Source of the DNA: Cyclobacteriaceae bacterium
GTDB taxonomy: Bacteria > Bacteroidota > Bacteroidia > Cytophagales > Cyclobacteriaceae
DNA: 64,000 nucleotides
Direction of reading: 5' to 3'
NCBI GenBank assembly: GCA_012033595.1
Contig: JAAUQL010000007.1
Coordinates: forward strand, 7,501-71,500
Every line of letters begins with the position of its first letter. The first letter of the stretch is position 1. A program made the position numbers and the translations under genes. Under the pieces are notes generated by a model that did no database searches, was not told the origin of the DNA, and was given only the letters and a program-made list of their open reading frames with translations. Below, one piece after another: positions 57,466 through 60,033 of the stretch.

Positions 57466-57944
57466 CTAGAGGTGTTTTATCCAGAAAAACATAGAATGCG
57501 GTGCCTCGGTAAATCCCTGGTGTTTGTAAAGGTCACGGGCATTGAGGTTGTCTTTGCGGACTTCCAGCGTTATCTTGCCACATTTTTTTCCTGAGCTGCA
57601 CCTTCGAGCGCCTGCAAGAGTTGGCGAGCCACGCCAACGCCTCTGTAGCCTTCCTCTACATAGATATCGTGTATATTGAGCAGGGGCTTCGCCATAAAAG
57701 TAGAATAGGCAAAAAAGCAGGTGCACACCCCCACAAATTGATCGTTGAGTTTGGCAAAAAGGATCAAGGCGAGTGGGTGGTTTTTCAGGTCGTTGATCAC
57801 ATCGCCCTTTTGCTCGTTTGTCCAGGGCTCGGCTTGTCCCATCGGGTCTTTCATATACCCGGCGGTCAGCCTCAAAAAATGAGAAGCCTGATCAGGATCG
57901 CTGAGGTTTCCTTTGATAATCTGGATATTTTTATTTGTATTCAT
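57466..57944 (-). CDS. GNAT-family N-acetyltransferase (one frameshift)
   Basis: A CoA-dependent acetyltransferase. Frame A from 57944 has the N-terminal arm and the acetyl-CoA-binding motif VEEGYRGVGVARQLLQALEG. It breaks at the T7 run 57583-57589 (one base missing). Frame B has the rest, with CGKITLEVRKDNLNARDLYK and HQGFTEA. Repair gives exactly 160 codons, a normal GNAT length. The substrate (a small amine or protein N-terminus) is unknown. Confidence 0.85.
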
Positions 57945-58019: not shown

Positions 58020-59564
58020 TTAAATATTTTTCAATTTGTATTTTTTGATATTGATATTGTAGTTGGCTATACGCATTTCCATTTGCCGCTCGGTAATGCC
58101 GAGATTGTCCGCAGCCTGGCCAATATCTCCTTTGGTCAATTTGAGGTTGTCTTGTATCAATTCCTTCTCCACCTTGGCCAATACCGTTTGCAGCGGGCCT
58201 CTTTCTGGCGGGCCACTAGATTCGGGGGTTTGTAAAGTGGGGGGCAGATGAAATCCATAGATCACACCGGAGTTGCTCAGGATGCATGCTCTTTCGAGAC
58301 AGTTCTCTAACTCGCGCACATTGCCCGGCCAGTGGTAGCTCATGATCATATCGATGGCCGAAGTACTGATACGGCGTACATTTAGCCCATGCTGGTCGTT
58401 GAACTTGACAATAAAATGATCGATAAGTTGTGGAATGTCGCTTTTGCGCTCGCGTAGCGGTGGAATATGAATAGGGAACACATTGAACAAATAGTATAGT
58501 GGGTTCAAAAGCTTGCCCTCTTCCAGCAGCCTGTCGGGATTTTTGCTCGTGGCGGCGATCAGCCTGATGTCAACGTCTATTTTGTCCTGGCTGCCCACGC
58601 GTTGCAATTGTTTGTCTTCGATCAACTGTAATATTTTGCTTTGGATATTTAAAGGCACATCGGCCAGGTCGGTGAGAAATACGCTACCATAGTGGCTGCG
58701 CTCAAATATGCCAATAGTTACCTGATCGTGCCCTTCGCTATCTTGTGCTACGCTGCCAAATAATTCTGTTTCTATCATGGCTTCAGTCAGACCCGAGCAG
58801 TTGATCTCTTCAAACGCCTGGCTGGCTCGCTGGCTGTTGAAGTGAATGGACTTGGCCACCAGTTCTTTGCCCACACCGCTTTCGCCGGTTATGAGCACAT
58901 TGGCTGTAGTAGGAGCTACCTTGGAAATGAGATTGTACACCACCTGCATGGCTTGACCGTTGCCGATCATGGTGGCAGGACTAAATTTCATTTTCAGCTC
59001 CGACTGCAAGCGTTTGTTTTCCTCCTGTAGCCTTTGTACTTCTTCCAACTCTTCCTGGCGCGCCTTTAAGGCCTGGGCAATCATGCTGCCGATAATGGTG
59101 ATCAGCCTGATATCTTCTTCGAAAGAAAAATTATTATTGAAAACCCGGTCAACACTGAGTGTTCCGATCACTTCTTTTTCGTGCTTGATGGGCACGCAGA
59201 GATAAGAAACATCTTCCTTATTTATGCTATTGCGCGATTTGGTTTTATCCATAAACTGTGGCTCATCGGAGATTCGGGGAATGTACACCGACATGCCAGA
59301 CTTTACCACTTTGCCGATGATGCCCTCCCCAACTTTGTACTTACCCCGGGCTTTTTCTTCTTTTGACATACCGTAGGCCTCTTCAATGCTAATCTCCAGC
59401 GAATCTTTATTGAGTAGTGTAATGGTACCGCGCTCCAGGCCGATGTATTTGGCCATCATCTCAAGGATTTGGTACAACACATCTTTGATGTTTTTGCTCT
59501 TATTGAGGGCTATGCTGATATCAAACAGTAAAGTAAGTTCCTTTAATTCGTTTTTTGAATCCAT
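58020..59564 (-). CDS. degenerate NtrC/NifA-type AAA+ regulator with GAF domain
   Basis: A 514-residue protein: GAF sensor domain (~20-170), coiled linker, AAA+ domain (~195-430) and Fis-type HTH at the end (ADNLGITERQMEMRI). The Walker A GESGVGKE (227-234) is intact. The GAFTGA loop needed to contact sigma-54 is absent; after ELFG comes SVAQDSEGHDQ. The Walker B acid pair is changed (SVFLTDLAD instead of TLFLDE), and the arginine fingers are lost (LLNPLYYLFNVFPI instead of FREDLYYRLNV). It may bind DNA and ATP, but it is unlikely to remodel sigma-54 polymerase by the usual route. Confidence 0.9.
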   Translation of the reverse strand: MDSKNELKELTLLFDISIALNKSKNIKDVLYQILEMMAKYIGLERGTITLLNKDSLEISIEEAYGMSKEEKARGKYKVGEGIIGKVVKSGMSVYIPRISDEPQFMDKTKSRNSINKEDVSYLCVPIKHEKEVIGTLSVDRVFNNNFSFEEDIRLITIIGSMIAQALKARQEELEEVQRLQEENKRLQSELKMKFSPATMIGNGQAMQVVYNLISKVAPTTANVLITGESGVGKELVAKSIHFNSQRASQAFEEINCSGLTEAMIETELFGSVAQDSEGHDQVTIGIFERSHYGSVFLTDLADVPLNIQSKILQLIEDKQLQRVGSQDKIDVDIRLIAATSKNPDRLLEEGKLLNPLYYLFNVFPIHIPPLRERKSDIPQLIDHFIVKFNDQHGLNVRRISTSAIDMIMSYHWPGNVRELENCLERACILSNSGVIYGFHLPPTLQTPESSGPPERGPLQTVLAKVEKELIQDNLKLTKGDIGQAADNLGITERQMEMRIANYNINIKKYKLKNI

Positions 59565-60033
59565 GTGCTGCCTGTTAAATCTTCAATTTTGTACTGCATT
59601 ATTGCCATTACACTGCATCAGAAAGAAAACGTGATTAATCCATCTACAATAAAATATGTTTTTATTTCGAAATATTCAACAAAAGCAAATTTTACTATTG
59701 CTGTTTATGCAAATCTAACCAAACTGGTGCAAAAATTAAAATCAGAAAAGATAATAAATCGGGAGCCGTAGAGCAACATGTTGAAGGCTGCTCGAATCGG
59801 GCTGAGGGGCTTAGGGCTTTGGAATTTTTTTATTTGGTTGGGCGCTATAAACACATTTTAATTTCTGTAAACATTAAGTCCCCTTGGGATTATCCATCCT
59901 CAGCGTATATAGCATTCTCCCTCAACGTTTCCTGCGAATAACCCTGAGGGGGTAAAGTTAGCATCCTTTTCGTGTTCAGCTATAGCTCATTGTACAGAAC
60001 TTATGGCCATAGGCGTATGCTGCAACCGAAACA
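59565..60033. other. 469-bp AT-rich intergenic region, no gene seen
   Basis: The gap between uvrB (3' end) and the regulator (5' end), both on the minus strand, contains only short ORFs and an imperfect CCCC...GGGG inverted segment near 59881-59956. I saw no convincing promoter or RNA. Confidence 0.45.

Follow-up and report, generated by a model that had tools for sequence, protein, structure and literature searches.

A GAF-sensing regulator of NifA-like descent that has lost its sigma-54 motor motifs in one Cytophagales genus

The regulator gene and its surroundings

The window, i.e., the whole stretch of 64,000 nucleotides that has been analyzed, carries on its reverse strand a gene for a regulator composed of a GAF sensor, an AAA+ module with lid, and a Fis-type helix-turn-helix (Table 1). 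The Pfam families GAF, Sigma54_activat (residues 199-366, 157.8 bits), AAA_lid_14, and HTH_8 have all been matched above their cut-offs. The original prediction had judged the GAF and DNA-binding domains to be intact, in agreement with these matches and with the constraint observed on both among orthologues. The long helix joining GAF and AAA+ in the AlphaFold model may form the coiled coil of a dimer.

Table 1. Positions of the regulator, its parts and the adjoining elements in the window
Feature	Position	Strand	Basis or remark
Predicted motor-dead, NifA-derived regulator, GAF / AAA+ / lid / Fis-type HTH, 514 aa	58020..59564	-	ORF, Pfam and NCBIfam
GAF sensor, residues 26-166	59067..59489	-	Pfam PF01590
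Long GAF-to-AAA+ helix, residues 148-193	58986..59123	-	AlphaFold model, 8-row alignment
Walker A GESGVGKE, residues 227-234; identical in 5/5 orthologues	58863..58886	-	Orthologue alignment
Loop 1 (GAFTGA region), residues 270-284; motif gone; mean identity 36%; invariant 2/15	58713..58757	-	Orthologue alignment
Walker B acidic pair, residues 298-299; T-D for D-E (T/S/A-D across 5 orthologues)	58668..58673	-	Orthologue alignment
Arginine-finger stretch, residues 353-359; both arginines gone in 5/5	58488..58508	-	Orthologue alignment
AAA+ lid, residues 371-453; sensor II arginine R417 (NVREL) in 5/5	58206..58454	-	Pfam, orthologue alignment
Fis-type helix-turn-helix, residues 462-501	58062..58181	-	Pfam PF02954, 29.6 bits against a cut-off of 22
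GNAT acetyltransferase gene downstream of the regulator	57466..57944	-	Frame interrupted in the present assembly; uninterrupted beside the regulator in 3 relatives
Conserved 20-base upstream element TTTTGTTGAATATTTCGAAA, candidate operator	59665..59684	-	5/5 orthologous upstream regions
-7-like box TAGATTTG	59710..59717	-	Start-to-start 33-34 bases before the element in 3/5

Full-length orthologues have been found in five of the seven genomes of the genus, the window genome included, with the other four proteins 76-86% identical to that of the window. The gene order in three of these genomes (G002, G003, and G004) is an outer-membrane gene (a weak Omp85 match below cut-off), the regulator, the GNAT acetyltransferase gene 25-35 bases further on, and a cyclophilin-like gene, while the contig of the fourth (G001) stops just past the regulator. 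In the window, 75 bases separate the regulator and the GNAT gene, both of which lie behind uvrB. The break in the GNAT frame falls at an A-run; together with a broken nifA elsewhere in the same genome, it suggests that this MAG either contains assembly errors or has recently undergone decay. A sixth genome (G005, 85% complete) holds an empty site (L118, G005:C279, 4545-4719), in which 175 bases separate the outer-membrane gene from the GNAT gene and both the regulator and its upstream element are absent; the regulator has not been found elsewhere in this genome. Since the locus occurs there without the gene, the regulator is dispensable. It has either been gained within the genus or been cleanly lost in G005, and the pairwise identities are compatible with both.

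Regarding the leader of the gene, the element TTTTATTGAATATTTCGAAA has been recovered in all five genomes, its end lying 93-116 bases ahead of the start codon, with 10 summed mismatches across the five upstream regions vs. 24 for the best of 60 shuffled sets. The element is AT-rich, its two-fold symmetry is not clear, and its best match on the G005 contig has 5 mismatches and lies away from the empty site. About 25 bases upstream of the element, a TAnnTTTG box, which we take to be the -7 element of Bacteroidota promoters, occurs in three of the five genomes; of the other two, G001 lacks such a box altogether, and G004 has a single one, on the far side of the element. Judged from these leaders, self-regulation through the element is probably the simplest reading. 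In all five genomes, the 470 bases upstream of the gene are free of matches to a NifA-type UAS (TGT-N10-ACA) and to a sigma-54 pattern, the two simple patterns used being a weak test.

Motor motifs and selective constraint

Reading of the regulator frame has confirmed that Walker A is present but that the GAFTGA loop, the D-E pair of Walker B, and the arginine fingers are altered, as the original prediction had stated. Canonical relatives carry ELFG-HEKGAFTGA where the regulator has ELFG-SVAQDSEGHDQV, a loop of equal length in which the last glycine (G278) is the sole remnant of the motif. In Walker B, FLDEI is replaced by FLTDL (D to T298, E to D299), and in the arginine-finger stretch FREDLYYRL by LLNPLYYLF, so that the arginine positions 353 and 359 have both been substituted. 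According to the excerpted text of PMC7175178, GAFTGA makes contact with the promoter DNA as well as with sigma-54, and the arginine finger extends to the gamma-phosphate of the neighboring subunit. The PspF variant E108D has been described, in the part of PMC4132715 consulted, as close to wild type on duplex DNA, yet with reduced ATPase activity. Because the Walker B exchange of E for D is mild when taken alone, it is the loop, D298, and the two arginines that carry the argument for loss of the motor. The switch asparagine is missing in one of the five orthologues. All of them retain Walker A together with the sensor II arginine.

The fold itself appears ordinary: a fold search has returned common AAA+ folds of sigma-54 activators, VpsR included. 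AlphaFold places a beta hairpin at loop 1 of the regulator. Refolding of the loop is not claimed, as the hairpin is also predicted for a canonical control, with lower confidence and from an alignment that included the five changed sequences.

Mean identity among the five orthologues amounts to 89% in the GAF part (residues 1-168) and 88% in the lid, and falls to 63% in the Walker B region and 36% in the loop, while ten canonical NifA proteins (families f101 and f103) are 78% identical in GAF, 93% in the lid, 89% in the Walker B region, and 84% in the loop, and five Bacteroidota NifA proteins 33, 64, 66, and 70%, respectively. Compared with canonical NifA, conservation of the aligned sequences is reversed, with constraint shifted from the motor to the sensor, which argues for a working protein without need of the motor. 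Among the orthologues, pN/pS has been determined as 0.08 for GAF, 0.09 for the lid, 0.17 for the HTH region, and 0.59 for loop 1; across GAF, linker, the pre-loop part of AAA+, lid, and HTH it stays at 0.08-0.17, with synonymous sites saturated (pS 0.71-0.90).

That the gene is functionless and decaying is very improbable: the motor motifs are eroding and the G005 locus lacks the gene, but the frame is open in five of five genomes with saturated synonymous change, pN/pS is low in GAF, linker, the pre-loop part of AAA+, lid, and HTH, and the upstream element has been conserved.

Spread and descent

All five orthologues lack GAFTGA, show T/S/A-D at the place of D-E, and have neither arginine of FRxDLYYR, while the GAFTGA-type loop (a definition that tolerates A replaced by S, F by Y, and the second G by D), D-E, and both arginines are all present in each of the 102 NifA-like relatives that have been read. 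These relatives consist of 93 proteins (L102-L112, L119-L200), L020-L024, and L057-L060. The 93, all 93 of them positive in the strict motif count, represent every match from two genome samples, the own genome and G130/G226 excluded, and five of the 102, from other phyla, come from outside the genome samples; L025, a partial match of 30% identity with canonical motifs, has been kept outside the 102. At E<=1e-80, matches beyond the genus number 0 in 295 family genomes, 1 in 390 order genomes, 4 in 395 class genomes, and 94 in 395 phylum genomes; two of the 94 are already among the four class matches, as the samples overlap, and each covers part of its group. No motif loss has been found among these matches in the family, order, class, and phylum samples, of which the larger ones were scored for the best 3 to 5 candidates per genome. 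The losses, as read from the sequences, are no local mutation: the close homologues do not keep GAFTGA and D-E, the losses being common to all five orthologues. The original prediction had further envisaged a subclass in Bacteroidota at large. Such a spread has not been seen: the sample matches beyond the genus are all canonical when read, and losses have been observed within this genus only. In several f101/f103 genomes of the same phylum, a further NifA-like gene with canonical motifs lies alongside the first in the genome, its product sharing about 40-42% identity with the regulator (L186-L196, L198).

The regulator had been taken for an NtrC-type protein, an origin that model scores and trees reject in favor of NifA as the parent family. 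NCBIfam has assigned 373 bits to the NifA model (TIGR01817), 242 to NtrC, and 189 to TyrR. The NifA equivalog cut-off of 528.85 bits is missed by all five orthologues (373-390 bits), and the canonical P0009 (528.6) and P0010 (488.9) miss it too, which makes the cut-off a weak test. The order GAF / AAA+ / Fis HTH matches NifA over the whole length, full-length relatives are 39-48% identical, and the best solved chain by sequence is the NifA of Azotobacter (A. vinelandii, 9qq6), covering residues 10-508. An AAA+ tree unites the five orthologues (100/100) at the end of a long stem; they fall inside a NifA-like group of 14 rows (99/98), in which a spirochaete NifA is their weakly supported neighbor (86/72). 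Eight of 33 candidate rows (L023, L001-L004, L007, L008, and L047) had been missed by the motif filter and were omitted from this tree; the motifs of L023 and L001-L009 have been read in the strict motif count, L006 being identical to L053, the own-genome nifA. A full-length tree has put the regulator clade beside Bacteroidota NifA (94/93), on a very short branch (0.002) where the midpoint root lies. In a GAF-only tree, which has many long branches, the clade falls elsewhere among NifA-like proteins. On these alignments, descent from a NifA-like activator is firm, while the exact sister of the clade is not.

The genome of the window (G000) has rpoN and nine other strong Sigma54_activat matches, all nine of which carry D-E and a loop of the GAFT/GSFT type. 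Eight of them have both arginines; the ninth is nifA, whose frame is broken inside the arginine-finger stretch in this assembly. This NifA is canonical, 42% identical to the regulator, and encoded divergently beside nifH in a nif cluster on another contig than the regulator (L061, G000:C180, 1514-12682). Family cut-offs are exceeded there by nifH, D, K, E, and B and narrowly missed by a nifN-like gene, and a small gene taken for nifI has given no family match at E<=1e-30. Within 20 kb around nif, the UAS and sigma-54 patterns, a weak test, match once each, neither at nifH. Over its family cut-off, nifH has been detected in this one of the seven genus genomes and has not been found in the other six (two of them 74% and 85% complete). 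Because nifH occurs in one of seven genomes, control of nif is not the main job of the regulator, and partnership with NifA as its main role has been ruled out on the same count, two of the six genomes without detected nifH being 74% and 85% complete.

A probable regulator without its motor

Compared with NifA, of which members from Bacteroidota, from other families of that phylum, from spirochaetes, and from others have been read, the regulator shares the domain order and the best model and differs in GAFTGA, D-E, the arginine fingers, and the absence of nifH in six of seven genomes. TyrR, DhaR, HupR, VpsR, and YplP have likewise lost the sigma-54 contact; their sensor domains differ from that of the regulator, and for TyrR the model scores (189 vs. 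373 bits for NifA) point to separate origins. TyrR, DhaR, and HupR have been reported as sigma-70-dependent and VpsR and YplP as probably sigma-54-independent (PMC3162934, excerpt). In the NtrC of Caulobacter and Rhodobacter capsulatus, GAFTGA has been lost within a lineage, with evidence of action at sigma-70 promoters (PMC10274813, excerpt). In those proteins loop residues have been deleted, and Caulobacter NtrC depends on its Walker A and B residues, which are conserved; in the regulator the loop keeps its length, and it is Walker B and the two arginine fingers that have been lost. Aquifex Nlh1 and Nlh2 (4g3k and 4g3v among the sequence-matched structures) are GAF-bearing NifA-like proteins as well, but they are described as sigma-54 activators. 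Nlh1 is thought to act outside nitrogen fixation, with gating by the GAF ligand via the joining helix (PMC9866876, in the part available). Regarding the idea of a subclass described by nobody, GAFTGA-less relatives at sigma-70-type promoters have already been described in the excerpted parts of PMC3162934 and PMC10274813. A NifA-derived GAFTGA-less regulator, or an example from Bacteroidota, has not appeared in titles or abstract openings among the matches listed from the open-licence PMC literature.

Among the features by which a sigma-54 activator would be recognized in sequence, Walker A is present, and GAFTGA, Walker B D-E, and the arginine fingers are absent; an AAA+ domain without GAFTGA joined to a DNA-binding domain would place the protein with the TyrR/VpsR kind. 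Loss of the sigma-54 remodeling function, as suggested earlier, is the natural reading given the fixed loss of the loop, D298, and both arginines. From the sequence evidence, we consider it fairly probable that the protein is a GAF-sensing DNA-binding regulator, derived from a NifA-like activator by dismantling of the motor and the sigma-54 contact, which acts without sigma-54.

Three other functions have been weighed against this reading. An anti-activator, in which the motor-dead subunit enters rings of intact sigma-54 activators or takes their DNA sites and thereby inhibits them, appears unlikely. The lid and fold are kept, so that oligomer contacts may survive, and the own genome offers nine canonical-loop Sigma54_activat proteins, one of them the nif-linked NifA; but nifH, and likewise a second copy at E<=1e-75, has been found in one of the seven genus genomes, which speaks against NifA as the partner in the others, the subunit interface bears the very arginine fingers that have been lost, and the best-kept part is the GAF sensor. 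Somewhat less likely still is a nucleotide-independent scaffold, whose AAA+ fold would be a mere dimerization platform and whose Walker A a relic. The loss of Walker B and the arginine fingers fits this picture, as does the report that VpsR has no need for ATP (PMC10274813, excerpt), yet GESGVGKE is identical in five of five orthologues despite drift of the adjacent motifs. We regard as distinctly improbable that the protein is still a sigma-54 activator using an unusual, lineage-specific loop contact: Walker A, the sensor II arginine, and the loop length are retained, and GAFTGA-less point mutants of Caulobacter NtrC have been reported, in the excerpt of PMC12421884, to raise sigma-54-dependent genes, but 13 of the 15 loop positions vary from species to species, where a contact surface should be constrained, and neither the Walker B aspartate nor either arginine finger remains.

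For the preferred regulator acting without sigma-54, the kept Walker A and sensor II arginine suggest that nucleotide would still be bound, with hydrolysis no longer productive. A small GAF ligand may alter the oligomeric or DNA-binding state via the long joining helix, and housekeeping-type promoters would be regulated without sigma-54. The protein probably binds its own leader, where the position of the element downstream of the -7-like box in three of five genomes would suit repression, and the GNAT gene behind it is perhaps affected too. More tentatively, and at slightly less than even confidence, the whole may be condensed as follows: in one Cytophagales genus, a NifA lineage would have departed from nitrogen fixation when a single ancestor lost its arginine fingers, the catalytic Walker B pair, and the contact with sigma-54, giving rise to a ligand-sensing, nucleotide-locked regulator of housekeeping promoters with a conserved operator in its own leader. 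If true, a motor-driven activator has become a plain ligand-gated transcription factor. For the question of how an ordinary regulator arises from an ATP-driven sigma-54 activator, the genus would amount to a natural experiment: the losses are fixed in one clade, intact relatives exist in the phylum and, in one case, in the own genome, and G005 as the sixth genome provides the locus without the gene. As GAFTGA-less regulators are already known as a kind, the surprise is moderate. Annotation from domains would probably label the protein NifA-type or sigma-54-dependent, which is very probably wrong.

Peptide patterns of the regulator have given no match in viral contigs, and a PHROGs search has returned one family of unknown function. 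A search of the seven genomes for the upstream element at <=3 mismatches has yielded 73 matches vs. 21 with the reversed pattern; 30 of the 73 have been examined, and comprise the five orthologues' own leaders, 19 sites within reading frames, and six intergenic sites. Two intergenic matches belong to the own genome (L079 and L086, position 1501), each with 2 mismatches. The first precedes an NAD-dependent epimerase-like gene by 114 bases, the second a DUF4956 gene by 39 bases. These two genes are possible targets, to be taken as leads rather than as a regulon.
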